Origin: a virus
DNA length: 23,429 bases
Direction: 5' to 3' (one strand)
Virus record (IMG/VR): IMGVR_UViG_3300036852_000744
Coordinates: 1-23,429 of that record
Shown here: one piece after another, positions 679 to 23,019 of the stretch
Numbering within the stretch: the first letter of the stretch is position 1
How the letters are laid out: each line of letters opens with the position of its first letter
Translations under genes and position numbers: made by a program
The notes under the pieces: generated by a model
Told to the model about the DNA's origin: nothing
What the model saw: the letters and a program-made list of their open reading frames with translations, nothing else
The model's database searches: none

Positions 679-1734
679 ATGAGTACCGACGCCCAGACCG
701 CCGCCTCGTCACCGGCTCCGACCGCCGCCGCCGCTGAATCTGTGTCCGCTGTCGACCAGGCCGTCGCGACGAACAACGTCGCCGCGTACCGGGCCGCCCG
801 GCTGCAGGAACGCAGCGGCAAATCGACTCCTATTGCTGATCAACCTGCCGCCGCAGCAGCGGCCCAGCCTGACGGACAGGCCGCGTCAACGGACGCGTCA
901 GCGACCCCGGCCGCCTCGGAACCGGCCAAACCGAAGAAGAACGCCGACACGCGCGTGCAGGAACTCCTGCGCGAACGGGCGACCGAACGCGAACGCGCCG
1001 CCCGGGCGGAGCGCGAGCTCGTGGAACTGCGCCGCCAACTGCAGACGCCTCGTGACGATCAACCGGCCGCCTCGTCGCCGGCCAGGCCCGCAGCGGAGAA
1101 GTTCCCCGACTACGCGACGTATCTCGACCAGCACCCCGATGCGCCGCTCGAGCAGTGGCTCGATGCGCGCGACGAGTGGCGAGACACGCAGCACGCGACC
1201 CGCGCGCGGGCGCAGGCGGAGCAGCAGCACCGTCAGACCGCGCAGCAGCAGCGCACCGAGAAAGTGCGCGGGCAGATCGCGACGAAGGTCGCGGCCGATC
1301 CCGAGTTCCTCACGAAGGTGAAGCCCGAGATTCTCGATCTGAAACCGTTCGACGCGTTGGCGCCCGGGGAACCCGCCGGGCCGCTGAATGCGATCGCGGA
1401 AGAGATCCTCGACAGCGCCGTGACGGCGGAGCTGCTCCTGCACTTCTCGGAACACCCCGAGGATCTGCAGCGGCTCTCGACCCTGGCGCCGCGCGATCTG
1501 ATTCGCGAGTTCGGCAAGCTCGAAGCCCGTCTCGACACGTCATCCACCGCGGCCACGCCGACGCCGGCGAAGCCGCACCCCAAAACCATCACCGACGCGC
1601 CCGCGCCGCCGACCACGCTCGGATCTCGCCCCGCTGAGGCGCTCGATCCCGTGACGGCTGCGGTCGTGAGCGGCGATCAGGCCGCGTTCAAGGCCGCCAA
1701 ACACGCGGCGCGCCTCGCGACGGTCCGCAGGTAA
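679..1734 (+). CDS. putative capsid scaffolding protein
   Basis: This 351-aa protein is predicted to be the internal scaffold that guides coat assembly. The assignment rests on position (6 bp before the coat gene) and composition: an Ala/Pro/Gln-rich flexible N-terminus, a charged coiled-coil-like helix at about residues 80-120 (RVQELLRERATERERAARAE), a second Gln/Arg-rich helix around 165-200, and a lysine/arginine-rich C-terminus. The start at 679 is chosen because AAGGA (670-674) is correctly spaced; the frame extends upstream into the terminator, which is implausible as coding. The N-terminal segment AVATNNVAAYRAARL is echoed near the C-terminus by AVVSGDQAAFKAAKHAARL. P22 scaffold uses a C-terminal helix-turn-helix to bind coat, so this end may be the coat-binding segment; that is inference. 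No protease motif was seen. Confidence 0.7.
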   Translation: MSTDAQTAASSPAPTAAAAESVSAVDQAVATNNVAAYRAARLQERSGKSTPIADQPAAAAAAQPDGQAASTDASATPAASEPAKPKKNADTRVQELLRERATERERAARAERELVELRRQLQTPRDDQPAASSPARPAAEKFPDYATYLDQHPDAPLEQWLDARDEWRDTQHATRARAQAEQQHRQTAQQQRTEKVRGQIATKVAADPEFLTKVKPEILDLKPFDALAPGEPAGPLNAIAEEILDSAVTAELLLHFSEHPEDLQRLSTLAPRDLIREFGKLEARLDTSSTAATPTPAKPHPKTITDAPAPPTTLGSRPAEALDPVTAAVVSGDQAAFKAAKHAARLATVRR

Positions 1735-1740
1735 TTTCCG

Positions 1741-2985
1741 ATGCCCAACACGTTCGAATACGCCACCTGGCTGGCGATGGAATCGCTCGACTTGCTCGAG
1801 AGCAAGCGCGCGGTGAGCCAGTACTTCAACACCGACTACTCGAAGGAATTCAAACTCAAATTCCCGGTCGGGGACGCGATCAGCGTCCCGTACCCGCAGC
1901 GCTTCACGGTCCGCAACGGGCTGACCTACAACCCGCAGGCGATCAACCGCATCCACGCGTCGGTCGCCTTCGACGATCCGTTCGGGATCGACTTCGACTG
2001 GGATTCGGCCGAGCAGGCGCTGAAGGCGCCGCGCGGCCGCGCGAAGGTCAGCAAGGAAATCCTCGAACCGGCGATGAGCTACCTCGCGCAGGAGATCGAT
2101 TCCCGCTGCGCGCAGTACGCGTACCAGCACGCGGCCAGTGTTGCCGGCGTGCTCGGCACCGATCCGGCGGACTTCGACAGCGCGACCGGCGCGGCCGCGC
2201 AGAAGATGTTCGAGCTCGGCTGCCCCGAGGGGGAGAAAGCGTTCCTCCTCTCGCCGGCGCTGAACCGCACGCTCAAGAAGACCACCGTCACCTGGATGAA
2301 TCCCGTGTCGGACGTCAGCAAGATGTTCCGCAAGGGGATCGTCGGCCAGGCCGACGACTTCGACTTCTACCGCTCGATGTCCCTGTACCGCCACACGGCG
2401 GGCACGTGGGCCGGCGCCGTCACCGTGACGTCGACCGTGACCGCGCAGGGCACGACCTCGATCGCGCTGACGTGCACGACCGGTGACACGTTCAAGAAGG
2501 GCGACAAGTTCTCGATCGCCAGCGTGCTGCCGGTCAACCCGATGACGCGACGCACGTTCGGCAGCGCGGCGAAGACCTTCACGGTCACCGCCGACGCGAC
2601 CGGCGCGTCGTCCGCGGCGACGGTGTCGTTCTCGCCGGCGATGTACGGCCCCGGCTCGCAGTACCAGAACGTCGACGCGCTGCCGGTCGCAGCCGCGGCG
2701 CTGACGCTGTGGCCCGGCACGAGCTCGCCGAACGGCAAGAGCGGCACGGTCAGCCTGGCGCTGCACCGGAACGCGTTCGCGCTCGTCGGCGTGGAGCTCG
2801 AGGAGCCGAAGGATTCGTCCGTCGAGCTCGTCAGCCAGAAACGCGATCCGGATTCCGGCATCGCGGTGCGCTTCATCCGGCAGTGGGACAACACGATCAG
2901 CCGGTTCACCAACCGCTTCGACGCCTGCATCGGCTACGGCGAGCTCTACAACGACGCCTGCGCCGTGGCAGTCGCCGGCGCGTAA
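1741..2985 (+). CDS. major capsid protein, P22 coat (gp5) family
   Basis: This 414-aa protein forms the icosahedral shell. Its length is close to P22 gp5 (430 aa). Features typical of the P22 coat family are visible: an N-terminal region with TYNPQAINRIHASVAF, a beta-rich insertion at about 220-310 that corresponds to the P22 I-domain, the motif VLPVNPMTRRTFG followed by KTFTV, and a conserved end with SLALHRNAFALV, then a Lys/Asp-rich segment and AVRFIRQWDNTISRFTNRFDACIGYG. It follows the scaffold gene by 6 bp and is followed by a strong terminator at 3002-3036, as is common for highly expressed coat genes. The Shine-Dalgarno site is weak, so translation may depend on coupling to the scaffold gene. 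The family call is recognition, not a search result. Confidence 0.9.
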   Translation: MPNTFEYATWLAMESLDLLESKRAVSQYFNTDYSKEFKLKFPVGDAISVPYPQRFTVRNGLTYNPQAINRIHASVAFDDPFGIDFDWDSAEQALKAPRGRAKVSKEILEPAMSYLAQEIDSRCAQYAYQHAASVAGVLGTDPADFDSATGAAAQKMFELGCPEGEKAFLLSPALNRTLKKTTVTWMNPVSDVSKMFRKGIVGQADDFDFYRSMSLYRHTAGTWAGAVTVTSTVTAQGTTSIALTCTTGDTFKKGDKFSIASVLPVNPMTRRTFGSAAKTFTVTADATGASSAATVSFSPAMYGPGSQYQNVDALPVAAAALTLWPGTSSPNGKSGTVSLALHRNAFALVGVELEEPKDSSVELVSQKRDPDSGIAVRFIRQWDNTISRFTNRFDACIGYGELYNDACAVAVAGA

Positions 2986-3001
2986 TCGATCGTTCACCTC
3001 T

Positions 3002-3036
3002 GACGCCGCCGGTCGCGTGATCGGCGGCGTCGTTTT
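3002..3036 (+). terminator. intrinsic terminator after coat gene
   Basis: GACGCCGCCG (3002-3011) and CGGCGGCGTC (3022-3031) form a perfect 10-bp stem with a 10-nt loop, followed by GTTTT. It lies 16 bp after the coat stop codon. The T-run is short (four), so it is probably leaky, letting some transcription continue into the downstream head and tail genes. Confidence 0.75.
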
Positions 3037-3095
3037 CGCCTTGCGCCCTCGTGCACACACACGACGGGAGTGCGGGCACCTGAAGGTAGTTTTCA

Positions 3096-3521
3096 ATGAG
3101 TCTTGGCGCTTCGCTCTCTCCCGCGCGCACGATGCCGCACTTCTCGACGCTGGTCTATCCGTTCCTAACGGTGACCACGGACGCGACGGCCAGCGCGCTC
3201 ACCCTGACGGCCGCACAGATCCTCGGCGGCCTCATCCTCCGCGACCCGAACGGCGCGGGCCGGACCGACACGCTGCCGACGGCAGCGCTCCTGGTCGCGG
3301 CGATTCCCGGCTGTCAGGTCGGCAGCTCGTTCCAGTTCGACATCCGCAACACGGCGGATGCGGCCGAGACGATCACGATCGCGGCCGGCAGCGGCGGCAC
3401 CGTGAGCGGCACGGCGACCATCGCGCAGAACAACACGAAGCGGTTCCTCGTGCGCATCACGGCCATCGCGGCCGGCAGCGAGACCTACACGATCTACTCG
3501 ATCGGGACCTTCGTTCACTAA
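3096..3521 (+). CDS. putative capsid decoration or minor head protein
   Basis: A 141-aa protein with GAAGG about 10 bp before the ATG. It is almost free of long helices: it is rich in Thr, Ala and Gly with alternating beta-strand-like patterns (TLTAAQILGGLILRDPNG, SFQFDIRNTADAAETITIAA, KRFLVRITAI), as in small beta-sandwich virion surface proteins. It is the first gene after the coat terminator, where decoration or head-fibre proteins often lie. There is no signal peptide. Role is inferred from position and composition; it could be another small structural protein. Confidence 0.6.
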   Translation: MSLGASLSPARTMPHFSTLVYPFLTVTTDATASALTLTAAQILGGLILRDPNGAGRTDTLPTAALLVAAIPGCQVGSSFQFDIRNTADAAETITIAAGSGGTVSGTATIAQNNTKRFLVRITAIAAGSETYTIYSIGTFVH

Positions 3522-3530
3522 ATCCCTGAC

Positions 3531-3561
3531 GCGCCTCGGCGGGATCGTCTCGCCGGGGCGC
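3531..3561. other. GC-rich hairpin without T-run
   Basis: GCGCC/GGCGC, CGGCG/CGCCG and GA/TC pair across 3531-3561 with single mismatches, giving an extended stem in the 53-bp gap between two structural genes. No U-tract follows in the plus direction. It may be an mRNA-stabilising or processing hairpin rather than a terminator. Confidence 0.45.
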
Positions 3562-3574
3562 GCTCCTGGATCCC

Positions 3575-3850
3575 ATGCCTGATCTGACGTTTCCTCGACT
3601 CGTTCACCAAGCGGGCGGCGCGTTGTTGCGTGTCACCAGCGAAGACGCGTACGTCGCCGCGCTGCACGCCGGCTGGTCGGCCGATCCGGTCGCCGTCACC
3701 GTGCAGAAGGGCGACGCGATCTGGGTCGTCTACACGGCCGACAGTCTCGAGACGGCGCTGGCGGACGGCTGGGTTGTCCTCGAGCAAGTCGATCCCGAGC
3801 CGGTCGCCGTCGACGTCGACGCGCCCGCGCGGAAGCGGGCGAAGAAGTAA
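3575..3850 (+). CDS. hypothetical protein, 91 aa, basic tail
   Basis: The frame runs from ATG 3575 to a TAA that directly abuts the next gene's ATG. The body contains a compact alternating domain (ALLRVTSEDAYVAALHAGW, KGDAIWVVYTADSLETALADGWVVLEQ) and ends in an Ala/Lys/Arg tail (PARKRAKK). Similar small proteins with a basic C-terminus occur between coat and connector genes in many short-tailed phages, but I assign no function. No strong Shine-Dalgarno site precedes it. Confidence 0.6.
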   Translation: MPDLTFPRLVHQAGGALLRVTSEDAYVAALHAGWSADPVAVTVQKGDAIWVVYTADSLETALADGWVVLEQVDPEPVAVDVDAPARKRAKK

Positions 3851-4576
3851 ATGCCCTTCACCTACGGCGATCTCGTCACCGACGCCTACTGCGAGCTGAA
3901 CATCCTCGGCGCCGGCGAAGTGCTCTCGCCCGAAGATGCGGCGTTCGGCCTCGGCAAGCTGAATCGCCTGATCGATCTCTGGAACGCGAAGGGCCAGGCC
4001 GTTTACAACGACGTCCTGAACCCGTTCACGCTGACGACGAGCCTGAGTCCGCACACGATCGGGCCGACGGGCGCGACCTGGACGCTCTCGCAGCGGCCGG
4101 TGAAGCTCACCGCCGCGACTCTCGTCATCAACGGCACGCGCCGCCCGATCACGGTCCACAACGGCGACGTCGGCTGGTATACGAGTCTGGCGCTGCCCGC
4201 GCTGAGCGGCGATCCGACCGACGTCTACTACGAACCCGACTGGCCGAACGGCAAGCTCTATTTCTACCCGGTGCCGAGCAACGCCTACAGCGTGGAGCTG
4301 TGGGCGCGGGTCGTGCTCGCGTCGGTCGCGGCGGCCGACGTGTTTTCGCAGCCGCCCGGGTACCGCGAGGCGATGACCCTGACGCTCGCGGAGAGTCTCG
4401 GCCCGGCGTACCCGAACGCGGTCGTGTCGGCGGACCTCAAAACGCACGCGCGCGACGCGCGCGCCACCATCTTCGGCAACAACGACGTCACGCCGCGCAT
4501 TGCGACCGTCGACGGCGGCATGCCGCGCTCCGGGCCGCGCGGATCCTTCAACTACCGAACGGGACTGAGTTCATGA
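3851..4576 (+). CDS. head-tail connector / tail accessory factor, P22 gp4-like
   Basis: This 241-aa protein is predicted to bind below the portal after packaging and extend the channel. The N-terminal helical segment (PFTYGDLVTDAYCELNILGAGEVL followed by GLGKLNRLIDLWNAKG) is the pattern seen in P22 gp4-like tail accessory factors: two helices, then LN.L.D.W. A beta-rich middle follows with WPNGKLYFYPVPSNAYSVEL, then a C-terminal helix (YREAMTLTLAESLGPAYP). P22 gp4 is 166 aa, so this one is longer. Its place between coat and the gp10-like gene matches the P22 order. The start abuts the previous TAA; the stop overlaps the next ATG. Confidence 0.75.
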   Translation: MPFTYGDLVTDAYCELNILGAGEVLSPEDAAFGLGKLNRLIDLWNAKGQAVYNDVLNPFTLTTSLSPHTIGPTGATWTLSQRPVKLTAATLVINGTRRPITVHNGDVGWYTSLALPALSGDPTDVYYEPDWPNGKLYFYPVPSNAYSVELWARVVLASVAAADVFSQPPGYREAMTLTLAESLGPAYPNAVVSADLKTHARDARATIFGNNDVTPRIATVDGGMPRSGPRGSFNYRTGLSS

Positions 4577-4938
4577 ACCGGATTCTGCTTGCGCTGCTGG
4601 TCGCGCTGACGCTCAGCGTCACGCTCGCGGCGAGTTACTACGATTTCGAACAGATCACCGTCGACGCGACGGCGGGCGGCAAAGGCTTCACCGCCGCGAA
4701 GATCACGCCGTCGAACAAACCGCCGATGACCTCCGCGTCGTGCCGCTTGCGCACGGCGGAGATCAGCTACCTCTACGTGGATCCGGCGGCGACGACGGTC
4801 ACCGCGTCGGTGGGGCAGCTCCTCGAGCCGGGCGACACGATCACGTTCAGCAACCGCGAAGACCTCTTGAACTTCCGCGCGATTCGCACGGGCGCGACCT
4901 CCGGTCAACTCGATTGCACCTACAAGGCGGCGAACTGA
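4573..4938 (+). CDS. secreted-type protein with Sec signal peptide, 121 aa
   Basis: The ATG overlaps the connector stop (ATGA), so it is translationally coupled. The N-terminus is a textbook signal peptide: MNR, then a hydrophobic core of Leu/Ala/Val, ending near LAAS at about residues 19-22. The mature part is about 100 aa, beta-rich, with two cysteines (CRLRTAEI and LDCTYKAAN) that could form a disulfide in the periplasm. The segment LEPGDTITFSNREDLLNFRAIRTG resembles a small beta-sandwich. No family is recognised. Export of a virion-operon product is unusual and is discussed in the findings. Confidence 0.65.
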   Translation: MNRILLALLVALTLSVTLAASYYDFEQITVDATAGGKGFTAAKITPSNKPPMTSASCRLRTAEISYLYVDPAATTVTASVGQLLEPGDTITFSNREDLLNFRAIRTGATSGQLDCTYKAAN

Positions 4939-5519
4939 TGCGCCGCCTGCTCCTCACCATTCTGCTCGCGCTCGCGCCGGCGATCGCTGTGGCGCAGACC
5001 GCCACGGTCACCCCCGGTGTGCTGACGCCGGCGCCGGTCGTCGTCACGCCGGCCGCGGCGATGAACGGCGCCGGCCAGATGGCCGGCAAGATCACGACCT
5101 ACAACAACGTCACGACGGCGGGCTGGGGCGTGCCGGCGATTCAGGCGGCCGGGCGCGCGACCGCGCAGACCGCCGCGAACGCGAGCGTCGCGACCTACAC
5201 GGTCGGCGCGGCGGACGGCTCGTTTGAAGTCTCCGCGAACGTGCTCGTGACGACGGCGACGACGCACACCTTCACCATCGAATGCGCCTACACCGATGAA
5301 GGCAACACCGCGCGCACGCTGACCTTGCCGTTCACGCTCGTCGCCGGCTCCGCGATCGTCACCTCGGTCGCGAACGCCAACGGCGCGGTCCCGTACATGG
5401 GCATTCACATGCACATCCGGGCGAAGGCCGCGACCGCGATCACGATCCGGACGCAAGCCGCCGGCACGTACACGACGGTCACGTACAACGTCGAAGGCAA
5501 CATCCGCCAGATCTCGTGA
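4938..5519 (+). CDS. secreted-type protein with Sec signal peptide, 193 aa
   Basis: The ATG shares its A with the previous TGA (TGATG). MRRLLLT plus a hydrophobic core and an AVAQ cleavage-like site (about residue 19-20) give a clear Sec signal peptide. The mature region is Ala/Thr/Gly-rich and beta-strand-like (FEVSANVLVTTATTHTFTIECAYTDEGNTARTL), similar in style to phage tail or head-fibre beta domains, and ends YNVEGNIRQIS. The signal peptide is clearly related to that of the protein starting at 5915 (both MRRLLLT...AQ). Function unknown. Confidence 0.65.
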   Translation: MRRLLLTILLALAPAIAVAQTATVTPGVLTPAPVVVTPAAAMNGAGQMAGKITTYNNVTTAGWGVPAIQAAGRATAQTAANASVATYTVGAADGSFEVSANVLVTTATTHTFTIECAYTDEGNTARTLTLPFTLVAGSAIVTSVANANGAVPYMGIHMHIRAKAATAITIRTQAAGTYTTVTYNVEGNIRQIS

Positions 5520-5632
5520 TGCTGACCGCGCTCCTCGTCCTCGTCGGCGTCCAGGCCGCACAGCTCGGGATCGCGATCTGGTCGCTCGTCCATCTGCGGG
5601 CGCCGCTCAACCCGCACGGCCGGGTGCGGTAA
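5519..5632 (+). CDS. small single-pass membrane protein, 37 aa
   Basis: The ATG shares its A with the previous stop (TGATG). The peptide has one hydrophobic helix over residues 2-24 (LTALLVLVGVQAAQLGIAI), then WSLVHLRAPLNPHGRVR, a basic tail expected to stay in the cytoplasm. It lies among the secreted-type proteins and may act with them at the membrane. There are no homologues I can name. The tight coupling and clear membrane segment make it more likely real than chance. Confidence 0.5.
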   Translation: MLTALLVLVGVQAAQLGIAIWSLVHLRAPLNPHGRVR

Positions 5633-5636
5633 CGCC

Positions 5637-5915
5637 GTGGCCCAGTCGCGAGCCTTTCGGATCGCGCGCGTGACGCTCAGCGCGGGCGTCCTGACGGCGA
5701 TCACGCCGCCGCAGGCCTTTACCGCGGTCAGCGTCGGCAATGCGACGGCGACCGATCTCGAAGTCCACACGGCCTCGGATGGGACCGAGTACCTCGTGAT
5801 TACGAGCGGCTACGAACGGGCGCTCCCGATCGTCCGCACGCAGTTCGACAGTTACGAACCGGCGTTTTGGTTGAAATCGAGCGGCGGCGGCACCGCCGTG
5901 ATCATCTGGCACTGA
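5637..5915 (+). CDS. hypothetical structural-operon protein, 92 aa (GTG start)
   Basis: A GTG 4 bp after the preceding TAA opens this frame; the stop overlaps the next gene by TGATG. The protein is beta-rich without a signal peptide (FRIARVTLSAGVLTAITPPQ, TDLEVHTASDGTEYLVI, GGGTAVIIWH). It resembles small virion beta-sandwich proteins in composition, but no family is recognised. Confidence 0.6.
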   Translation: MAQSRAFRIARVTLSAGVLTAITPPQAFTAVSVGNATATDLEVHTASDGTEYLVITSGYERALPIVRTQFDSYEPAFWLKSSGGGTAVIIWH

Positions 5916-7300
5916 TGCGACGCCTGCTTCTCACGCTGATCGGCCTCGCCACGGCGGCCGTGGTGTCGGCGCAGGTGTTCCCGATCACGCTGCCGAGTCA
6001 CGTGATCGTCGACAGCTGCAGCGGCTGCGGCGGCGGCACGGTCGCGATCGATCAGACCACGCCCGGCACGACCAACGGCGTCGCCGTCACCAACGTCCCG
6101 CATGTCGTCTGTGACAGCGGCTGCGGATCGGCCGCGGCGGTCCTGATGGCCGACGGCGTCGCCAATCCAACGATTCCGCAGACCGCGAGCTTCGGCGTCG
6201 TCTTCAACGGCACGACCTGGGACCGCTGGCGCGGCGATACGACGAGCGGCGCGTGGGTCCAGGTCAAGAACACGCCCGCGGTCACCGTGAGTAGCGGATC
6301 GATCACCGCCAACGCGGGGACGAATCTCAACACGTCGGCGCTCGCGCTCGACGCGACCGTGACGGGCCGGCTGCCGGCCGGCGCGAGTCCCGCCGACAAC
6401 GAATCGAACACCGCCACGAATCTCTCGCGCGTCGGGACGTTCCCCTTCGTCTTCGACGGCACCACGTGGGATCGCTGGACCGGGCAAGTCACGCTGGGCG
6501 GCACGCTGCCGGCCTTCGCGGCGACGCCGACGATGAACGTCGGCACGTTCCCGGATAACGAACCGATCAACGTCGCGCAGCTCGCCGGAACCGCCACGTC
6601 GGTCAACTCCGGCGTGAAGGACGCGGGCACCCTCCGCGTCGTCCTCGCGACGGATCAGCCGCAGCTCACCAACAAGCTACTCGTCACGCCGGACGCGAAT
6701 AGCGCCATCAACGTCGCGCAGATCGCCGGCGCCGCAACGAGCACCGCCGCGTCCGGCGTGCAGAAAGTCGGCCTCGTCGGCAACGCCGGCGCCGCGATCG
6801 ACGCCGCGAATAACGCCGCCGCGCCCGCGAACGTGATCGTGCAGGGCGTCGAGACGATCGCGCAAGGCTCCCAGCCGACGGCCGCCACGGCCGGCAACGT
6901 GCGCCGATCGCTGGCCACCACGGAAGGCGTGATGTTCGTGCAGGAAGGCAGCTCGAATCGCTTTTCCTGCTTCGTCCAGGCAGTCACCGTCACGACACAG
7001 TGTCAGGCGGCGCCCGGCGCCGGCCTCCGCGCCTACATCACCGGCGCCACGTTCTCGAATCAAGCTGCGACGGTGCAAACGCTCGACATCGTCTTCGGCA
7101 CCGGCTCGAACTGCGCCACGGGCATCACCGCGCTGACCCACAAGATTCAGATGGGCACGAACGCGACGACGACCAGTCCGTTTCTCGCGGTCCTCGCCTT
7201 CGATACGCCGCTGATTCCCACGGCCGCCAACGCGATCTGCGTGCGGCCGAGCGCGGCGACGGCCTTCGGCGCGACGCTCACCGGATTTATCGCCCCGTGA
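5915..7300 (+). CDS. large secreted-type repeat protein, putative tail or surface fibre
   Basis: A 461-aa protein with a Sec signal peptide (MRRLLLTLIGLATAAVVSAQ) like that of the gene at 4938. After cleavage there is a cysteine-rich patch (CSGCGGG and CDSGCG within about residues 30-70), then repeated units with the motif F(N/D)GTTWDRW(R/T)G (near residues 95 and 180) and repeated INVAQ(L/I)AG units near 210 and 265. The C-terminal 120 aa form a separate beta-rich domain with spaced cysteines. The GTTWDR repeat style is common in phage surface and fibre proteins. Position just before the gp10-like gene supports a virion role; the signal peptide argues for export or membrane contact. Confidence 0.65.
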   Translation: MRRLLLTLIGLATAAVVSAQVFPITLPSHVIVDSCSGCGGGTVAIDQTTPGTTNGVAVTNVPHVVCDSGCGSAAAVLMADGVANPTIPQTASFGVVFNGTTWDRWRGDTTSGAWVQVKNTPAVTVSSGSITANAGTNLNTSALALDATVTGRLPAGASPADNESNTATNLSRVGTFPFVFDGTTWDRWTGQVTLGGTLPAFAATPTMNVGTFPDNEPINVAQLAGTATSVNSGVKDAGTLRVVLATDQPQLTNKLLVTPDANSAINVAQIAGAATSTAASGVQKVGLVGNAGAAIDAANNAAAPANVIVQGVETIAQGSQPTAATAGNVRRSLATTEGVMFVQEGSSNRFSCFVQAVTVTTQCQAAPGAGLRAYITGATFSNQAATVQTLDIVFGTGSNCATGITALTHKIQMGTNATTTSPFLAVLAFDTPLIPTAANAICVRPSAATAFGATLTGFIAP

Positions 7301-8751
7301 ACTATCCCGGCTTCATCGGTCCCAGCGGTCCGTCGCAGAGTCCGCTCGCCAACTGCGAGCGCACGGTGAACTGGTACGTCGAGCCGAACGACGCGGCCTC
7401 CGGCCGGCCGGCGCTCTATCCGACGCCCGGGCAGTCGGCGTTCGTGACGGTCAGCGACAGCGGCACGCGCGCGCTCTTCACGATGAACGGGCGCACGTTC
7501 GCGGTCGTCGGCAGCTCGTTCGGCGAAGTCTTTTCGGGGGGCACGTTCACCAAATACGGCACGGTCGCCTACAACAGCGCCCTGGCGCAGATCACGGCCA
7601 ACGGCATCAGCGGCAACCAGCTCGGGGTGTCGAGCGGGACGAACTTTTATGCCTTCAACTTGTCGACGAACACGCTCTCCGCGGCGGTGCTGGTCGGCGA
7701 GTCGACACAGATCGGGATGCTCGACGGCTACGGCGTCATCTTCAACCAGACCGCCGGCAAGATCCGCCTCTCGGCCTTGAACGATTTCTCGACGGCCGAT
7801 CCGACGATGTTCGCGCTCCGCTCGAGCGCGCCCGACAACTGGCAGGCGATGCTCGTCAAGGCGCCCGACGTCGTGCTGGTCGGCGAGCAGACCGGGGAAG
7901 TCTGGTACGACGCGGGGACGTCGTCGTTTCCGCTCGCGCCGCGGCCGGGCGTCAAGTTCGAGTACGGCATCGCGGCGACCTGGTCGATCGCGGCCGCCGG
8001 CGATTCGATCCTCTGGCTGTCGCGCAATGCCGACGGCGCCGGCGTCGTCGTGCGGATGCGCGGCTACGTGCCGCAGCCGATCAACAGCTACGCGCTCGAC
8101 ACGGCAATCGCCGAGTACCAGCGGACGGCCACGATCGCCGACGCCGAAGCGCTCGTCTATCAGCGCGCCGGCCACACCTTCTACGTCCTGAAGTTTCCGA
8201 GCGCGAACGCGACCTGGGTCTACGACCTGCGCACGGGGCTCTGGCACGAGCGCGGGACGTGGAACAGAGCCGCGGGCCGGTTCGATGTCTGGGGCCCGCG
8301 CGCGATCACCTACGCCTTCGGCAAGCACCTGGTCGGCGATGCGAGCGGCGTCCTCGCGTACCTCGACGACACGGTCGGCACCGAAGTCGACGGCACGGCG
8401 ATCCGCCGCGTCCGGATTCCGCCGGCGCTCGCGCCCGCGGACGGCGACCGCCTGTTTGTCGATCGGTTCGAGCTCGGGATCGATCCCGGCCTCGGCACCG
8501 CGACCGGGCAGGGCAGCGATCCGGAAGTGATGCTGCGCATCTCGCACGACTTCGGCAAGACGTGGGGCACCGAGCGCCGGGCGAAAGCCGGCAAGCAGGG
8601 CGAGTACGACACGCGCGTCGTCTGGACGCGCTGCGGCAGCAGCCCGCGCGCGTGGGTGCCCGAAATCTCAATCTCCGATCCGATCGTGGCGCGCCTGACC
8701 GGCGCGGCCGTCGACGGGCGCGGCATCGCGCGCGATCGGCGGGCGGCGTAG
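7297..8751 (+). CDS. packaged DNA stabilization protein, P22 gp10-like
   Basis: A 484-aa protein close in length to P22 gp10 (472 aa), which caps the connector together with gp4 and gp26 and keeps packaged DNA inside. The opening (NYPGFIGPSGPSQSPLANCE, then RTVNWYVEPND) and the long run of beta-propeller-like strands (RTFAVVGSSFGEVF, GYGVIFNQTAGKIRLSALND, TWVYDLRTGLWHERGTW) are characteristic of this family. The start is a GTG overlapping the preceding TGA. Order coat, gp4-like, gp10-like agrees with P22. The overall call is by recognition of the family pattern. Confidence 0.8.
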   Translation: MNYPGFIGPSGPSQSPLANCERTVNWYVEPNDAASGRPALYPTPGQSAFVTVSDSGTRALFTMNGRTFAVVGSSFGEVFSGGTFTKYGTVAYNSALAQITANGISGNQLGVSSGTNFYAFNLSTNTLSAAVLVGESTQIGMLDGYGVIFNQTAGKIRLSALNDFSTADPTMFALRSSAPDNWQAMLVKAPDVVLVGEQTGEVWYDAGTSSFPLAPRPGVKFEYGIAATWSIAAAGDSILWLSRNADGAGVVVRMRGYVPQPINSYALDTAIAEYQRTATIADAEALVYQRAGHTFYVLKFPSANATWVYDLRTGLWHERGTWNRAAGRFDVWGPRAITYAFGKHLVGDASGVLAYLDDTVGTEVDGTAIRRVRIPPALAPADGDRLFVDRFELGIDPGLGTATGQGSDPEVMLRISHDFGKTWGTERRAKAGKQGEYDTRVVWTRCGSSPRAWVPEISISDPIVARLTGAAVDGRGIARDRRAA

Positions 8752-9252
8752 ATGAGCCTGATTGCCGCGCCGCCGATCCAAGACTCGCTCGTCGAGACCG
8801 ACGAGACCGACGCGGCGCGCCGCAACCCCTTCTACCTGGCGAAGGGGTGGTTCATCTGGCTGCAGGACTCGATCATCGCGCGCGTCCAGGCCGCGCCGCA
8901 GGTGCTGAAGGTCCTGACGCTGACGAATCAGAACGCGGCGATCGGGGCGACGGCGATCCCGCTCGGCACGGTGACCGCCGGGATCTACCGGATCGCCTGG
9001 TACGCGCGCATCACGACCGTCGACGGCGTGTCGAGCTCGCTGACGGTGACCGCGCGGTGGACCGAAGGCGCCGTCGCGCTGACGCTCAGTGGCGCCGCGA
9101 TCACGGGCGATACGACGACGAGCGTGCAGAGCGGGATCGTCGAGGTGCAGGTCGATGCGAACGCGGCGATCAGCTACTCGACGGCGTACGCGTCGAACAC
9201 GCCCGGGCAGATGAAATACGCGCTGCGCCTCATCGTGGAGCGCGTGTCGTGA
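8752..9252 (+). CDS. hypothetical virion protein, 166 aa
   Basis: The ATG directly follows the gp10-like TAG. The N-terminal 50 aa are charged with a short amphipathic helix (NPFYLAKGWFIWLQDSII), followed by a beta-rich domain (LKVLTLTNQNAAIGATAIPL, IYRIAWYARITTVDGVSSSLTVTARW). This arrangement, a short anchoring helix then a beta-sandwich, is frequent in phage tail-tip or needle-associated proteins. In P22 the next gene is the needle gp26, but gp26 is a coiled coil and this is not, so it is left unassigned. Confidence 0.6.
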   Translation: MSLIAAPPIQDSLVETDETDAARRNPFYLAKGWFIWLQDSIIARVQAAPQVLKVLTLTNQNAAIGATAIPLGTVTAGIYRIAWYARITTVDGVSSSLTVTARWTEGAVALTLSGAAITGDTTTSVQSGIVEVQVDANAAISYSTAYASNTPGQMKYALRLIVERVS

Positions 9253-9623
9253 CGACCCGCGTGCTGCCGCCGGCGGAGTGGAATCGCCTCGCGGAGACGG
9301 AGCTCGGTCCGGCGCTGCCGCATCTCGATCCGGCCAGCGCCACGGTGTTCGTCGTGGAAGACGTGGACGGCGCGATCGTCGGCTGCTGGAGCCTGATCAC
9401 CGTCGCGCATGTGGAAGGGCTCTGGATCGCGCCGGCGCATCGGCGCCGCGGCCGCGTGCTCGTGAAGCTGTGGGCGCTGTTGTGTGAGCTGACCGGCGCG
9501 CGATCGCTCTCGTCGGTGCTGACCGCCGCGGTCAGTCCCGAGGTGACGCGCTTGATCGAATCGCGCGGCGGCGTCGCGTTGCCGCCCGCGTATGCGCTGC
9601 CGGTGCAGCCGTTGAGGAGTTAA
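9249..9623 (+). CDS. GNAT-like acetyltransferase domain protein
   Basis: The GTG start overlaps the previous TGA. The 124-aa product shows the GNAT core: a strand FVVEDVDGAIVGCWSLI (residues 34-50), then VEGLWIAPAHRRRGRVLVKL (55-74), in which R65-x-x-G68 corresponds to motif A (Q/R-x-x-G-x-G/A) that binds the acetyl-CoA pyrophosphate. The last G/A of the motif is valine, so catalytic competence is uncertain. It ends with a C-terminal region like motif B (SPEVTRLIESRGGVALPP). GNAT proteins are encoded in the virion region of several short-tailed phages; the substrate is unknown. Confidence 0.65.
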   Translation: MTTRVLPPAEWNRLAETELGPALPHLDPASATVFVVEDVDGAIVGCWSLITVAHVEGLWIAPAHRRRGRVLVKLWALLCELTGARSLSSVLTAAVSPEVTRLIESRGGVALPPAYALPVQPLRS

Positions 9624-9629
9624 GAAGCG

Positions 9630-10397
9630 ATGCCTGTTTTTGCATTGGCGCCGATGGCGGCCACGGCGTTCTGGGGGGCGGTCGGATCGGGCGCGGTGGC
9701 GGGTGCGCAGATCTACGGCGCGCACAAAGTCTCGTCGTCGAGCGACAAGGCCGCGAAGCTCCAGGTCGACGCCGCGAACCACGCGGCCGAGGTCACCGCG
9801 AAATCCAACGCCGAGGCGCTGGCGTTCCAAAAAGAACAAGCCGCGCGCGATGAAGCGATGGCCGAACAGACGCGTCGCGGCAACTACGACCAGTGGGCCG
9901 CGCGCGAGTCGCGGCTCGGGACCACGCTCGGCGCGATGCTCGGCCTCGGCCCGCGCGACATTCCGGCGTACGTGCCGCTGGCGCCGGGATCGACCGGTCC
10001 CGCGCCTGCGACGGGCGCGTCCGGCGCGAGCGGTGCGTTGCCGCCCGTCCCGAAGGATCTCGCGACCGCGATCGCGGAGGCGAACCGCATCGCCTACAAC
10101 GGCGAGAACAAGCACAACGACCCGAATTACTGGGCGGCGCACTGGGCGAAAGATCCCGGCTACACCTGGCAACGGCTCCTGGGCTGGCAAGCCGGCGGCG
10201 CGGACGTCGCGAAAGCGGGGCCCTACGCCGGCGTCGCGACCGCCGCGCCGGCGCGCACGCCGCCGCCCTCCGGCGCGCCGATGACCGGCCGGCCGCTGAC
10301 GATCGGCAGCTACGCGACGCTCCACCCGCGATCCCCGCTCACGCCCGCGCTCGAGGCGCCGGTGTATCAGCCGCGCACGATCGGCAGCTACTTCTAA
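9630..10397 (+). CDS. putative internal virion / DNA ejection protein A, 255 aa
   Basis: Good Shine-Dalgarno (GAGGAG) before the ATG. The N-terminus is a Gly/Ala-rich hydrophobic segment (about residues 8-30: ATAFWGAVGSGAVAGAQIYG), typical of short-tailed-phage ejection proteins that enter the membrane. It is followed by an Ala-rich coiled coil (residues 38-90), a Pro/Gly linker, a domain with NDPNYWAAHWAKDPGYTW, and a C-terminal segment carrying two copies of a TIGSY motif (LTIGSYATL and RTIGSYF). Together with the next two genes it occupies the place of the P22 ejection genes (gp7, gp20, gp16). Confidence 0.6.
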   Translation: MPVFALAPMAATAFWGAVGSGAVAGAQIYGAHKVSSSSDKAAKLQVDAANHAAEVTAKSNAEALAFQKEQAARDEAMAEQTRRGNYDQWAARESRLGTTLGAMLGLGPRDIPAYVPLAPGSTGPAPATGASGASGALPPVPKDLATAIAEANRIAYNGENKHNDPNYWAAHWAKDPGYTWQRLLGWQAGGADVAKAGPYAGVATAAPARTPPPSGAPMTGRPLTIGSYATLHPRSPLTPALEAPVYQPRTIGSYF

Positions 10398-10420
10398 CGC
10401 TCCAAGGACCGCGAGAGCCC

Positions 10421-11377
10421 ATGTACGATCAGGACACCGACTACAAAGACCTGCCAGAGAACGACCCGGCGTCGTCGACGTCGACCAACTGGTGGGAAGG
10501 CCCGCCGCCGGCCGGCTACACCGGCCCCTGGCCGCCGCCGCTGCCCGAGGGCGCGAGCTACGGCCCGAACTTCGGCCAGATCATCTACGGCACGCCGACG
10601 CCGGTTGATCAACTGCCGGGCGCCACGCCGTCGACGGATCCAACGAAGAGTCCGTACTACCACCCGGAGTACTGGGGCAACACCGCACCGGCGCCGACGG
10701 GTGACGCCGGCGGAGGCGCCGGCACGATCGGCGGGATCCTGTCGCCGTTCACCGGCGCGTTCACGGCGCCGACGCCGCAGTACCCGGTCGTCCCGTCGGG
10801 GATGCCGTACGTCCCGCCGACGCCGGACTTTCATCCGCCGGCCTACACGCCGCCGCCGGCGTTTGCGTACGACGCGTTCGTCGCGCCGACCGCGGCCGAC
10901 GCGCTGACCGATCCGGGCTACGAGTTCGCGCGGAGCGAAGGGCAGCGCGCGCTCGAAGCCAGCAAGGCGGCGCAGGGCACGCTCAACACCGGCGGGACGC
11001 TCAAAGACATCCTCGCCTGGGGCAACAACTACGCGACCACGCGCTACCAGGACGTCTACGGCCGGAAGCGCGACGTGTACGACACGAACCGCGCGAACGC
11101 GGTCGATGTCTACAACCGCAACTACCAGACGCAGTACGCCGACCCGTACCAGATCGCCTACCGAAGCGCGCTCGACCGCTTCGCGCCGCAGCAGATCGCG
11201 TACACCACGCAGGCGGGCGCCGGCCAGACGGCCTACACGACGCAGGCCGCGGCGGGGCAGCGCCAGAACGAGCTCGACTACCGTAACGCCTGGGACCGCT
11301 TCACGTTCGACTACGACAAGTGGCGCGATCAGCGCGACTCGACGTTCAACAAAACGTTCCAGTACGTGACCGCCTGA
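10421..11377 (+). CDS. putative DNA ejection / transfer protein B, 318 aa
   Basis: CCAAGGA lies upstream of the ATG. The N-terminal 150 aa are Pro/Gly/Tyr-rich and disordered-looking. From about residue 160 there is a helical module, DPGYEFARSEGQRALEASKA followed by AQGTLNTGGTLKDILAWG and then NYATTRYQDVYGRKRDVYD, a pattern common in phage internal or ejection proteins (DPGY.FR..EG..ALE.S.AA.G.L..GGTL..L). The C-terminus has near-duplicate units (IAYTTQAGAGQ, TAYTTQAAAGQ) and many spaced tyrosines in a long helix. It probably exits the virion with the genome; that is inference from family and position. Confidence 0.65.
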   Translation: MYDQDTDYKDLPENDPASSTSTNWWEGPPPAGYTGPWPPPLPEGASYGPNFGQIIYGTPTPVDQLPGATPSTDPTKSPYYHPEYWGNTAPAPTGDAGGGAGTIGGILSPFTGAFTAPTPQYPVVPSGMPYVPPTPDFHPPAYTPPPAFAYDAFVAPTAADALTDPGYEFARSEGQRALEASKAAQGTLNTGGTLKDILAWGNNYATTRYQDVYGRKRDVYDTNRANAVDVYNRNYQTQYADPYQIAYRSALDRFAPQQIAYTTQAGAGQTAYTTQAAAGQRQNELDYRNAWDRFTFDYDKWRDQRDSTFNKTFQYVTA

Positions 11378-11385
11378 GGATCTGA

Positions 11386-13305
11386 ATGGCGCCGTTTCAG
11401 TACGACAGCTACCGCAATCCCTACGTCGGCACGATCGGCGATCTGATCCTGCGGCGCGGCGACATTGCCGCGCGCCAGGCGGAGCAGGTCGCCGCGGCAC
11501 AGGCGCGCGCGACGGAGGCCTCCGGCCAGGCGTGGGCGGGCGCGGTGGGGAACATCGCGCAGACCGTCGCCGCGATTCCGCAGCAGATCCAACAGCAGAA
11601 GCGCCAGGGACTCGCGGATGAAGCCGATCGGCTCGCGATCGATCAGCGGCGCCAGCAGCTGACGACCGCGCAGCGCGTCGAACAGACGAAGCAGCGGATC
11701 AATCAGCTCGCGAGCGATCCGGGCATCTTCAATGAGGACGGCACGTTCAACCTGAAGAGCCTCGCGGCGCGCATGTCGACGCCGCCCGACGGCGCCGTCG
11801 GCCCCGTGCAGCCGCCGGATCTGGGCACCATCGCCGGCATCATCGATCCGATCAACAAGAGCCTGGCGGAGGCGCGCACGGCGCGCGTGCAGTGGGAAGA
11901 GCACAAAACGAACACACTCGCCCGGATCGCGTCGACGGCCTTCACGCTCGGCGCACCGAACGAGGCGAATCCGCGGGGCTCGTATCTCGAGCACGCGCAG
12001 CTGGGCCTCGCCGCGGCGCTCAAGAGCGGCCTCATCACGCAGCAGGAAGCGAATTCGTTTCTCGTGCCGATGGTCGAGCGGCCCGAAGCCGTCCCGCACA
12101 TGCTGCAGGCCCTCGCGGGCCGCTCCACCGCCGCGCCGATCAAACTCGGCGAACACGATCGCCTGGTCAATCCGCTGAATCCGACGCAGGTGTTGGTCGG
12201 CGGCACGACGACACTGAAGACGCGCGCGGAGCTCGCCGCCGACGCGGCGAATCCCGAGAGCCCGACGCGCGACCAGTCCAAAAAAGCCCTCGATCTCATG
12301 ACGACGCCGACGTCGAACGAGTGGAAGGACGTGCTGCTGGACGGGAAGCCGGCGAAGGTGTTCGTCGATCCGAAGACGAAGACCGTCACCGATCTCGCGG
12401 GCCGTGTGATCGACACCCCGGAGACGCGCATCACGCCGGTCCCGCCCGCGTCGGTCCAGATCCACAACGCGCAGCAGGCCGGCGCCGCCGGCGACTGGAC
12501 GAAAACCGGTGACGACTTCCTGAAGACGGTCCCCGCGCAGTGGCGGCAGACCGTCAAGAAGATCGCCAACTACGACGAGGACCCGACGAAGGTCGCGTCG
12601 ATGCGCGGCGGCATGCGCGAAACGCTCATGCAGTGGGTCAACCAGGTCAATCCCGCGTACGACGCGTCGCAGTTTACGAATCGCGCACCGACGCGGAAAG
12701 CGTTCACCACCGGCACGCAGGGGCAGCAGATCAACGCCATCAACACCGCGATCGGGCACATCGATCAGATCGTCGGCCTCTCCGCGCAGATGAACAACAG
12801 CTCGTTCACGCCGGGCAACGACGCCTTCAACCGGCTGCGGACGCTGTTCGGATCCGCCAACGTCACGAATTTCGAGACGCTGAAAGAGGCCCTCGCCGGC
12901 GAAGTCGCGAGCGTGTTGAGCAAGAGCGGCGCGACGGTCTCCGGCATTGAAGCCGCGAAGCAGAGCATCAAGAGTTCGGCCTCGCCGCAGCAGCTCGCCG
13001 GCTACGTCCAGACGCTCATCCCGGTGATGGGCTCGAAGCTCGCCGCGTTCGACTACCAGTACCACCAGGCGATGGGCGCCGACGATGCCTTCTCGGCGCT
13101 GTCACCGACCTCGAAGCAGATCCTCGAAAAGCACGGGTTCGATCCGGCGCACCCGGAGATCGGCGGCCCGCGAGACACGAACGCCGTCAGCGTCCCGACG
13201 AACGTCGCCGCCGCGCTGAAGAGCGTCGGCCCCGGGCGGCACACGCTCTCGGACGGCAGCGTGTGGATCGTCAATGCCTCCGGCACCATCACGAAGGTGA
13301 AGTGA
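11386..13305 (+). CDS. putative large DNA ejection protein C, 639 aa
   Basis: The largest gene in the window, 8 bp after the previous stop with a TGAGGA Shine-Dalgarno site. The N-terminus has helices rich in Ala/Gln (RQAEQVAAAQARATEASGQ, QQIQQQKRQGLADEAD), then a middle domain, then a conserved-looking helical module from about residue 430 (TTGTQGQQINAINTAIGHI, LRTLFGSANVTNFETLKEAL, AGEVASVLSKSGATVSGIEA). This last module recurs at the C-terminal half of many phage internal virion proteins. No lysozyme or transglycosylase motif (such as an SLT ESGG) was seen, so it is not a murein-degrading ejection protein by inspection. Confidence 0.65.
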   Translation: MAPFQYDSYRNPYVGTIGDLILRRGDIAARQAEQVAAAQARATEASGQAWAGAVGNIAQTVAAIPQQIQQQKRQGLADEADRLAIDQRRQQLTTAQRVEQTKQRINQLASDPGIFNEDGTFNLKSLAARMSTPPDGAVGPVQPPDLGTIAGIIDPINKSLAEARTARVQWEEHKTNTLARIASTAFTLGAPNEANPRGSYLEHAQLGLAAALKSGLITQQEANSFLVPMVERPEAVPHMLQALAGRSTAAPIKLGEHDRLVNPLNPTQVLVGGTTTLKTRAELAADAANPESPTRDQSKKALDLMTTPTSNEWKDVLLDGKPAKVFVDPKTKTVTDLAGRVIDTPETRITPVPPASVQIHNAQQAGAAGDWTKTGDDFLKTVPAQWRQTVKKIANYDEDPTKVASMRGGMRETLMQWVNQVNPAYDASQFTNRAPTRKAFTTGTQGQQINAINTAIGHIDQIVGLSAQMNNSSFTPGNDAFNRLRTLFGSANVTNFETLKEALAGEVASVLSKSGATVSGIEAAKQSIKSSASPQQLAGYVQTLIPVMGSKLAAFDYQYHQAMGADDAFSALSPTSKQILEKHGFDPAHPEIGGPRDTNAVSVPTNVAAALKSVGPGRHTLSDGSVWIVNASGTITKVK

Positions 13306-13306
13306 C

Positions 13307-14254
13307 GTGGCCGAATCCCAGCTGACCGTCGTCCAGTCCGAACCGCTCGCCGTGGCGGCGTCACAGCCGCTCGGCTCGGAGCGCACGCGCGTCGACACGA
13401 ACACGCTCGGCGTCGATCACGAGCAGCTACAACAGAAGATCGCGAACTGGGCCTCCACGCTCCCGCCCGCGTTGCAGCAACCGGCCGCGCGGATGGGCAC
13501 GTACTACGCCGACGTGTTGGCCTCGCTCGCGGAATTGATGTCCGCGCCGGAGTCGATCGCGACGATGGGCGCGAAGCCGGCGCTGGCCGCAATGGATGCG
13601 ACCGGCGCGGCGATCACGCGGTTGAAGTCGGCGGTCGGTCGGGTGTCGGTGAATCCGGGCGCGGCCGTCGAGCAATTCTCCCTGACGCAGCCGCAGAAGA
13701 TGCTGAAAGCGATCAGCGTCGCCGAGCAGCCCGTCGCGGAGCGCGTGCCCGGCTTCGATCGGTATCTCCCGAATCAGAGCGTGGCGCCGTCGACGCCCGC
13801 GATCGCGCCGCCCGTCGAACCTGTCGCCACGCCGGCGCCTGCTCCGCCGCGATCGCCGCGCTCGGTCAACGACGCGATGGCGGACGCGGTGCGGAAGGCG
13901 CAGGCGCAAGCGAAGGCCGCGCGGGCGGCGAAGAGTGCGGGATCTACTTCACCCGCCGAAACTGCGCGCGGTGGTACAGCGCCTCGAGGTGATCGCCCTG
14001 CCGCCGCAACGCCGGGGGAATCGCCAGCGCCGCCGCCAGCTGCTGAATCGGCAGCGACGCTCCGGCTGACGCCGCCGGAAGCGGCGGTCTACACGCAGCT
14101 CCGCGCGGCGGGCAAGACCGACGCGCAGGCCCGCGAGGCGATCGCGGCGATGCGCAAGCTCGCGGCAAACCTGCCGACCGACGCGGCCGTGCGGCAGACG
14201 GTGAAGGGCCGGAACACGACCGGCAAATGGCCAGGACCAGAAGAGCAGCGATGA
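13307..14254 (+). CDS. hypothetical virion-operon protein with Pro/Ala linkers, 315 aa
   Basis: GTG start 1 bp after the preceding stop; ends with ATGA overlap. An N-terminal helical region (residues 35-110, LQQKIANWASTLPPALQQPA) is followed by a Pro/Ala linker (about 155-185), a basic Ala/Lys helix, a second Pro/Ala/Thr-rich stretch (about 208-248), and a short folded-looking C-terminal domain (LTPPEAAVYTQLRAAGKTDA followed by QAREAIAAMRKLAANLP). The stretch encoded by 13940-14053 has abnormal codon use for this genome (see findings). Function unknown; it might be a virion or assembly protein. Confidence 0.6.
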   Translation: MAESQLTVVQSEPLAVAASQPLGSERTRVDTNTLGVDHEQLQQKIANWASTLPPALQQPAARMGTYYADVLASLAELMSAPESIATMGAKPALAAMDATGAAITRLKSAVGRVSVNPGAAVEQFSLTQPQKMLKAISVAEQPVAERVPGFDRYLPNQSVAPSTPAIAPPVEPVATPAPAPPRSPRSVNDAMADAVRKAQAQAKAARAAKSAGSTSPAETARGGTAPRGDRPAAATPGESPAPPPAAESAATLRLTPPEAAVYTQLRAAGKTDAQAREAIAAMRKLAANLPTDAAVRQTVKGRNTTGKWPGPEEQR

Positions 14255-15489
14255 CGACGACCCCGACCAGGACTCCCAGGACCATGCGCGGCGTGCTCAG
14301 TCTACTGCTGATCGCGCTGTTCGTGCCGACCCTCTTCGGCGCGACCGGCACGCTGATGCCGACGCCGTTTCAAACGTCGTTCGACACCAACGGCAATCCG
14401 GTCAGCGGCGGCTGCGTATGGACATACGCGGCGGGCACGACGACGCCGGCGACGACCTACACCGATTCGGCGCTCACGACGCCGAACACGAACCCGATCG
14501 TGGCGGATTCCGCCGGGCGGTTCGTCGCCTGGCTGTCCGTGGGCACGAGCTACAAGTTCACGTACGAGACGGCGTGCACGGCGCCGGCGCACGGCTCGGT
14601 GCTGCGCACCGTCGACAACGTGCTCGCGGTCCCGGGCAGCAGCAACCCGACGACGGATCTGTCCACCGTCAACGCGCGCTGCACGCTGACGAGCGGGACG
14701 CCGGTCACGACGAGCGACGTCACCGCCGCGACGTCGGTCTACATCGAACCGTACCAAGGCAACCGGATCGCGCTCTACGACGGCGCGAACTGGAATCTGC
14801 GCACGGTCACGGCGACGTCATTCGCGGTGCCGGCGACGACCAGCACGATGTACGACGTGTTCGCGTACGACGCGTCCTCGACGCCGACCTACGAAACCCT
14901 CGCGTGGACGAATGACACGACGCGCGCCACGGCGTTGACGACACAGGACGGCGTGCTCGCGAAGTCCGGCGCGACGACGCGCCGGTACCTGTGTTCGTTC
15001 CGGACAACGACCGTGAGCGGACAGACGGAAGACAGCAAGGTCAAGCGGTATCTCTGGAACTACTACAACCGGGTCGACCGCGCGCTCGTGCGGAAGGAAA
15101 GCACCAACAGCTGGACGACCACATCCCTGACTTTCGAACAAGTCAACGCCTCCGCGGCGAATCAAGTCGACCTCGTGGTCGGCTGGCCGGAAGACACGCT
15201 GACACTCACGGCGGTGCTCGTCGGAGCGGCTACCTCCGATCTGTCGTTTGATACCTCGATCGGGGAAGACTCGACGACCGTAGCGATGACCGATGCGCTG
15301 CAAGGCACCGGCAATGCAACCTCTGGGACTAACACCGGCGCCGCCGTGGCCAGTATCGCGAAGGTGCCAGCGGTGGGGCGCCACTTTTATGCCTGGCTCC
15401 AGGCCACGGCGGGCGGGACGCTGACGATGCGGTCGAACAATTCCAGCGCGCGGGCGCAGTCGGGCATCTCTGGGAGGTATCAGGGCTAA
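14251..15489 (+). CDS. tail fibre protein with N-terminal hydrophobic segment
   Basis: A 412-aa protein whose region after residue 30 carries the common phage tail-fibre opening (PTPFQTSFDTNGNPVSGGCV followed by WTYAAGTTTPATTYTDSAL, then NPIVADSAGRFVAWLSVGTS and YKFTYE). This fold is found at the virion-attachment end of many fibres and is followed by beta-rich receptor-binding regions. The start at 14251 overlaps the previous stop (ATGA). Unusually, residues 12-31 are hydrophobic (MRGVLSLLLIALFVPTLFGA), like a signal peptide or membrane anchor; an internal ATG at 14284 would make this the extreme N-terminus. It probably determines host adsorption. Confidence 0.7.
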   Translation: MTTTPTRTPRTMRGVLSLLLIALFVPTLFGATGTLMPTPFQTSFDTNGNPVSGGCVWTYAAGTTTPATTYTDSALTTPNTNPIVADSAGRFVAWLSVGTSYKFTYETACTAPAHGSVLRTVDNVLAVPGSSNPTTDLSTVNARCTLTSGTPVTTSDVTAATSVYIEPYQGNRIALYDGANWNLRTVTATSFAVPATTSTMYDVFAYDASSTPTYETLAWTNDTTRATALTTQDGVLAKSGATTRRYLCSFRTTTVSGQTEDSKVKRYLWNYYNRVDRALVRKESTNSWTTTSLTFEQVNASAANQVDLVVGWPEDTLTLTAVLVGAATSDLSFDTSIGEDSTTVAMTDALQGTGNATSGTNTGAAVASIAKVPAVGRHFYAWLQATAGGTLTMRSNNSSARAQSGISGRYQG

Positions 15490-22266: not shown

Positions 22267-22442
22267 TGCCTGATAGACCGACGAAGGAGTACATCGGCGA
22301 CGGCGTGTACGTCTCGATCGAGTGGGGCGATCTCAAGCTCGAAACCGATCGCGGCGGCGTGACGCATTGGATCGTGCTGGAGCCGCAGGTCTATGCGGCG
22401 CTGGTGGCCTACGTGGAACGCGCCAAAGCGGAGGGACGCTGA
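22266..22442 (+). CDS. small hypothetical protein, 58 aa
   Basis: TGATG coupling to the exonuclease gene. The product reads as a small alternating strand-and-helix protein (YIGDGVYVSIEWGDLKLETD, VLEPQVYAALVAYVERAKAE). Its C-terminus ERAKAEGR is similar to that of the following three paralogues (IAKAEGRS), and the same DNA junction is reused. No function recognised. Confidence 0.55.
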   Translation: MPDRPTKEYIGDGVYVSIEWGDLKLETDRGGVTHWIVLEPQVYAALVAYVERAKAEGR

Positions 22443-22729: not shown

Positions 22730-23019
22730 GCCCGCATACGCCGGGACCGTGGCGGATCTGGAAACGCAGCGATGGTGACTTCATCACCAATGAGCGCGGC
22801 GACGAAGGCGTCTGCCGGCTGATGCAGCGCCCGCGGAAGCCTCACGAAGAATTGCCCGAACTGGTCGCGGCCAACGCGCGGCTAATCGTTGCGGCGCCGG
22901 AGTTACTCATGACGTTGCGGCTGATCCGGCTCGCGCCGTTGCAGCACGGCGACGAGGCAATGACCGAAATCCTACGGATGGCCGACGCTGCCATCGCGAA
23001 AGCGGAGGGACGCTCATGA
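22726..23019 (+). CDS. HTPGPW-family phage protein, paralogue 2, 97 aa
   Basis: Begins MSPHTPGPWRIWKRSDGDFI, contains VAANARLIVAAPELLMTLRL, and ends ADAAIAKAEGRS. It is clearly paralogous to the genes on both sides but diverges strongly in the middle, as if under different selection or shuffled. The start overlaps the preceding stop (ATGA). Function unknown. Confidence 0.7.
   Translation: MSPHTPGPWRIWKRSDGDFITNERGDEGVCRLMQRPRKPHEELPELVAANARLIVAAPELLMTLRLIRLAPLQHGDEAMTEILRMADAAIAKAEGRS

Follow-up and report, generated by a model that had tools for sequence, protein, structure and literature searches.

Predicted Sec leaders on the tail fibre and other appendage-type proteins in the virion operon of a P22-like podovirus

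The 23.4-kb virus record IMGVR_UViG_3300036852_000744, from an uncultivated soil phage (IMG/VR, positions 1 to 23,429; the window, meaning the whole stretch analysed), carries a P22-like virion operon in which four genes, named here by their start positions, begin with predicted Sec signal peptides: 4573, 4938, 5915 and the tail fibre gene 14251. An earlier note on this DNA, made from sequence alone, had singled out these leaders together with a 37-amino-acid (aa) hydrophobic open reading frame (ORF) at 5519-5632. All of these are present, and the reading frames and starts of the four genes hold.

4573..4629, + strand: predicted Sec signal peptide of 4573, 19 aa, cut between TLA and A (score 10.5; relatives with leaders)
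4630..4938, + strand: mature 4573, 102 aa, two Cys, a small virion-operon protein
4938..4994, + strand: predicted Sec signal peptide of 4938, cut between AVA and Q (score 12.0; TGATG overlap)
4995..5519, + strand: mature 4938, a stand-alone beta domain
5915..5971, + strand: predicted Sec signal peptide of 5915, cut between VSA and Q (score 11.7; leaders on homologues)
5972..7300, + strand: mature 5915, 442 aa, eight Cys, appendage-like, with NGTTWDRW and RVVLATDQP motifs
14251..14340, + strand: predicted fibre leader, start 14251 or alternatively 14284 (score 10.7 or 10.3; homologues)
14341..14640, + strand: fibre head-binding domain with a Cys pair, GGC..TAC (sequence and fold match)
15079..15489, + strand: fibre C-terminal TNF/C1q-like domain, putatively receptor-binding (predicted structure)

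Leaders were called with a rule-based detector written for this analysis and checked on 120 E. coli K-12 proteins, where a cut-off of at least 9.5 passed 18 of 19 Sec substrates and 0 of 73 cytoplasmic proteins. Among the 43 called genes of the window, these four reach the cut-off and no others do. Each leader has a positive n-region, an uncharged h-region and small residues at -3 and -1. The predicted cleavage sites are MNRILLALLVALTLSVTLA before A in 4573, MRRLLLTILLALAPAIAVA before Q in 4938 and MRRLLLTLIGLATAAVVSA before Q in 5915; that of the fibre is ambiguous, with A or T at +1. A lipobox test was negative, no +1 residue being Cys, and the mature leader-bearing chains carry no further strong hydrophobic segment under a filter that was applied to the window genes as well. 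Shuffled N-termini pass the detector at 0.74%, giving an expectation of 0.32 in the window (P about 3e-4). However, 2 of the 104 non-gene ORFs of the window also pass, so that the window alone is not proof; by itself it is suggestive and only moderately above chance, and it is the comparative data that decide.

For that comparison, a coat-profile scan yielded 80 contigs of 259 relatives, and reducing each coat cluster to a single phage gave a set of 47, of which three came from an earlier set. Of 44 genes directly after the coat, 28 bear a leader, mostly cleaved between A and QTALTQ or similar; upstream, at six positions that include scaffold and portal, 2 of 214 genes do (Fisher p 7e-24). At positions +4 to +8, where 4573, 4938 and 5915 lie, the count is 22/143, and the overall rate of 64/763 in relatives compares with 0.40% for shuffled N-termini. 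Leaders are found on appendage-type proteins and are very rare on those of the portal, scaffold, head closure and ejection. The post-coat gene of the window, 3096, is of a leaderless type, the leader-bearing type being another domain, and most P22-like relatives beyond the closest ones have no leader in the region surveyed. One positive, L073, is likely a false call of the detector. As a separate observation, L137:11234-12004 fuses a leader, a decoration-type domain and the phrog_673 domain that stands alone at window 3096, and so connects both post-coat gene types.

Cysteine content follows the leaders. Mature chains with leaders contain 1.47% Cys, against 0.80% in leaderless ones, and on the same contigs the ratio of even to odd Cys counts is 53:9 with leaders and 170:211 without (p 9e-10). 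Of the 53 sequences in the fibre N-domain family, 14 carry a leader, and 12 of these contain a Cys pair, compared with 0 of the 39 leaderless members (p 3e-10), a count made after by-eye reclassing of two missed leaders (L090, L248) and the addition of the later-fetched L257 and L258; counted prior to inspection, the figures were 9/10 and 2/41 (p 2e-7). The pair sits at different positions in different fibre subgroups (GGC..TAC; PCVGC..NC; YC..PC), and its placement thus suggests more than one origin. The best fibre tree requires seven or more changes of leader state. The sole leaderless decoration-type post-coat homologue seen, L153, has no Cys. Within the window, the cysteine pairs reported in the earlier note are found in 4573 (two Cys), 5915 (eight) and the fibre (four), but 4938 has a single Cys.

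The fibre ties the leaders to the virion. Its head-binding domain matches the Pam1 tailspike (7eeq_A, phmmer E 9e-9, residues 8-100 to 8-100) and the Pan3 tail spike (9vyg, E 2e-10), and fold comparison with Pam1 and Pan3 gives Z 9.8 and 11.3; the AlphaFold2 model of the fibre, with a predicted local distance difference test (pLDDT) score of 92, superposes on Pan3 with Z 11.3 and 1.9 Å over 82 residues. At the other end of the protein, model residues 247-382 resemble the PLTL lectin 9ib7 (Z 12.2). A predicted 30-aa leader precedes the head-binding domain in the precursor; in the predicted mature chain the domain would lie at the extreme N-terminus. Fibre homologues with leaders occur in L025, L029, L218, L141, L154, L157 and others, and leaderless relatives (L047, L065, L209) begin directly at the head-binding domain, which is the expected cut point. 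Eight relatives have one such fibre per record, and no second was seen in the 42-kb record G002. Since the leaderless forms start at this domain and each record has one fibre, the leader reads as a removable add-on before a standard virion anchor. Judged from sequence and model, the fibre is a virion part, because its predicted mature N-terminus matches the solved Pam1 and Pan3 head-binding domain. In one relative, record G005, the fibre locus (L259:1549-6102) contains consecutive leader-bearing genes, one with 15 Cys; its last gene seems to run on at the other contig end (L260:2-5800) as a very large protein with 48 Cys.

The other three proteins have no match in Pfam or PHROGs, and their virion role is suggested by operon and domain content. 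A pattern search for relatives of 4573 returned none; two emerged through the coat and Hc3 loci, L029:1228 (48% identity, cleaved at MKRLILFLVLLACAAPVSA before G) and L135:11781, and both bear leaders. In L070-L078 the domain of 4938 makes up the C-terminal portion of longer proteins; its AlphaFold2 model (pLDDT 72) gives weak matches, jelly-roll or TNF-like only, and no clear fold. Protein 5915 shares motifs with long appendage-like proteins, and a PDB sequence search with it gave no match. Homologues with leaders are present in L002, L014, L019-L023 and L026, and also in a frame upstream of L025:7720. Those sharing NGTTWDRW (L002, L019-L023) often bear leaders, which differ in sequence, whereas those sharing the RVVLATDQP repeat alone are mostly leaderless.

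The remaining features of the operon and its surroundings are as follows.

679..4576, + strand: leaderless virion genes (PHROG matches, leader detector), namely scaffold 679 (phrog_8865), coat 1741 (phrog_283), 3096 (phrog_673), 3575 and the gp4-like adaptor 3851 (phrog_12985/637)
5519..5632, + strand: 37-aa hydrophobic ORF (open reading frame list)
5637..5915, + strand: leaderless 92-aa gene, the upstream neighbour of 5915
7297..14254, + strand: leaderless genes, namely Hc3 (head closure) 7297 (phrog_578, E 6e-83), needle-position gene 8752, an acetyltransferase-like gene and ejection-position genes 9630-14254, among them the DNA-ejection-type gene 10421 (phrog_598)
16093: endolysin

Scaffold, coat, gp4-like adaptor and Hc3 thus stand in P22 order. 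All four leader-bearing genes overlap the preceding stop codon, 4573 and 14251 through ATGA and 4938 and 5915 through TGATG, an arrangement that supports translational coupling at each. Gene 5637 is 47-49% identical to its counterparts in L025 and L026, each of which adjoins a 5915 homologue too. The first set of loci contained no relative of the 37-aa ORF. A search of the operon gave no sigma-70-like promoter, and terminator matches that are scattered and somewhat above background; independent transcription of the leader genes, as morons, is therefore without support from this search. The acetyltransferase-like gene (9249-9620; phrog_1249, E 1e-3) sits between the needle-position and ejection genes, and phage PBR31 has an annotated acetyltransferase in the matching place. 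Further downstream, 22442-23429 contains three tandem paralogues starting MSTHTPGPW, MSPHTPGPW and MSAHTPGPW.

Our preferred reading, to which as a whole chain we assign a probability of about 0.6, is that this clade of P22-like podoviruses encodes, in its virion operon, peripheral appendage proteins that are substrates of Sec. They would cross the Sec translocon, be cut by signal peptidase I and fold in the periplasm, where their disulfides would form; the capsid, portal, neck and ejection proteins would meanwhile assemble around DNA in the cytoplasm. After cleavage the mature fibre would present an ordinary head-binding N-terminus, and the appendages would meet completed capsids once lysis breaches the inner membrane. 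The sequences themselves show that the leaders exist, where they are placed and that they are conserved, that they go together with paired cysteines, and that the fibre is of virion type. We regard appendage export by Sec as very probable; incorporation into virions after export is in our view somewhat favoured. That the proteins really are exported, that they form disulfides and that they join the capsid at or after lysis we infer, the last of these because the tailspike of P22 binds to completed heads in vitro.

Several points weigh against this reading. Our self-made detector also passes several E. coli inner-membrane proteins, for which reason the surveys left out proteins whose mature chain has a second strongly hydrophobic stretch. 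Protein 4938 has one Cys only, which is present in leaderless relatives too, while the leader-bearing fibres L230 and L257 have no Cys pair in the N-domain. Only three well-supported, phylogenetically independent fibre pairs are available, which go in the expected direction with p 0.25 at best. A few coat proteins have a hydrophobic N-terminus, a misfit to the export of appendages, and an exported fibre would have to reach capsids before dilution. These coat extensions are N-terminal and in frame (L025:4497-5858, L094:9875-11239, L002:6585-7943), so that such coats might be tethered to a membrane or cleaved, and in L025 no ATG, GTG or TTG lies between the hydrophobic extension and the coat domain.

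The exported proteins might instead stay behind in the envelope of the host and be absent from virions, acting as receptor-masking or superinfection-exclusion proteins built from fibre domains. Such a role would account for the signal peptides and for the receptor-binding-like domains in 4938 and the fibre C-terminus, but the fibre retains a conserved virion head-binding domain and is the only one of its kind in the 42-kb record, no lipobox Cys stands at +1, and the genes are embedded in a late operon with overlapping start codons. We consider it unlikely for the set, with superinfection exclusion a possible role for 4573, 4938 and 5915. The earlier note had listed surface or exported host-altering proteins among its explanations. 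Export survives as the best reading; that all four are separate host-modifying proteins is not supported, given that the head-binding domain of the fibre is a virion domain of solved structure and that the other three resemble fibre or appendage proteins in sequence. Its suggestion of membrane insertion during ejection is not favoured either, the ejection-position genes being leaderless and the mature chains lacking a strong hydrophobic segment. Nor could we establish its duplication of the leader between 4938 and 5915: the two agree at 9/19 aa and 37/60 nucleotides and rank 4 among 2278 leader pairs, yet another phage's leader is closer to that of 4938 than is the leader of 5915, and the mature parts are unrelated.

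Alternatively, the leaders could tether nascent appendages to the inner membrane for assembly there, without full translocation. Although the long hydrophobic N-termini on a few coats (L025, L094, L002) and the long n-regions of some fibre leaders would suit a tether, many leaders have clear AxA sites, Gln at +1 is known from bacterial leaders too and cysteine pairing implies an oxidising compartment, making this improbable. Two products per gene could also be imagined, an internal start giving a leaderless cytoplasmic virion form and the full form being exported for another purpose. A Met does lie right behind the leader in the window and in L025 (LMPTPF, PMPTPY), but none is there in L029, L141, L154, L157 or L218, and the cysteine pairs would be left unexplained; we rate this a shade lower still. 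Finally, that genes of high G+C content, rich in Ala, Leu and Arg, have acquired leader-like hydrophobic N-termini by chance, as the pass rate of non-gene ORFs in the window might imply, is scarcely credible given leaders at the matching gene position in relatives of G+C content 0.51-0.69 and the position, cysteine and +1 statistics.

The +1 residue bears on the host. Gln occupies this position in 35 of 68 phage leaders of relatives and in 2 of 4 in the window; the corresponding Q-rule has been described as Bacteroidetes-specific (PMC5837995). One genome match of the Hc3 profile lies on a 7.4-kb contig in an Acidobacteria subgroup 6 metagenome-assembled genome (MAG), where misbinning is possible. 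In this MAG, G001 (L169-L208), 19 of the 52 predicted leaders have Gln at +1, which makes for a Q-rule-like pattern outside Bacteroidota; it also encodes two strong glutaminyl cyclase matches (PF05096). Together, the +1 likeness and the MAG match hint at a host in the Acidobacteriota, which is a lead and not a result; the host phylum is probably not Bacteroidota. Some mature N-termini may be pyroglutamate, formed by a host glutaminyl cyclase.

The usual assumption is that virion proteins of tailed phages are made and assembled in the cytoplasm. We judge it an even call whether a large uncultivated P22-like group builds its particle in two compartments, the capsid with its DNA in the cytoplasm and, by way of host Sec, fibres and capsid-associated proteins with disulfide bonds in the periplasm, the two being joined at lysis. 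If a common soil phage group does export its receptor-binding fibres, assembly would be a two-compartment process, disulfides would be open to tail fibres, and annotation rules by which a signal peptide counts against a role in the virion would be wrong. Leader style, in particular Gln at +1, could be compared with that of candidate host phyla as a sequence handle on host range. A search of the open-licence literature turned up no description of tail-fibre export in tailed phages, which does not prove novelty.

Among known systems, pIII and pVIII of filamentous phages are virion proteins exported with cleaved leaders, membrane-anchored and extruded. The window differs from this type of exported coat in that its mature chains have no membrane segment and lie in a tailed-phage operon. 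Export signals are known for phage lysis proteins such as signal-anchor-release endolysins and spanins (PMC3765740, PMC9144972); here tailed phages do use host export machinery, but for lysis and not for virion parts. The Nixviridae prophages of Porphyromonas gingivalis (PMC10367356) encode Sec leaders obeying the Q-rule, and some of their capsid proteins have predicted leaders. That study attributes the capsid leaders to a prohead protease and sees in the Q-rule genes, whose function is unknown, a capacity to change the surface of the host; those phages are siphoviruses of Bacteroidota, with no cysteine, position or head-binding evidence. The literature also holds a remark on signal peptides in Bacteroides phages. 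Closer in layout are Rhodoferax phage P26218, Xanthomonas phage PBR31 and EBPR podovirus 1, which have similar coat and Hc3 proteins and the gene order of the window (scaffold, coat, gp4, gp10/Hc3, needle, ejection, spike) but, unlike it, no leader in the region surveyed. With the Pam1 and Pan3 tailspikes (7eeq, 9vyg) the fibre has its head-binding N-domain in common, at 30-40% identity over the structural match and with the same fold. In those solved chains the alignment begins close to the first residue and no leader precedes the domain, whereas the fibre of the window has both a leader and a Cys pair within the domain.

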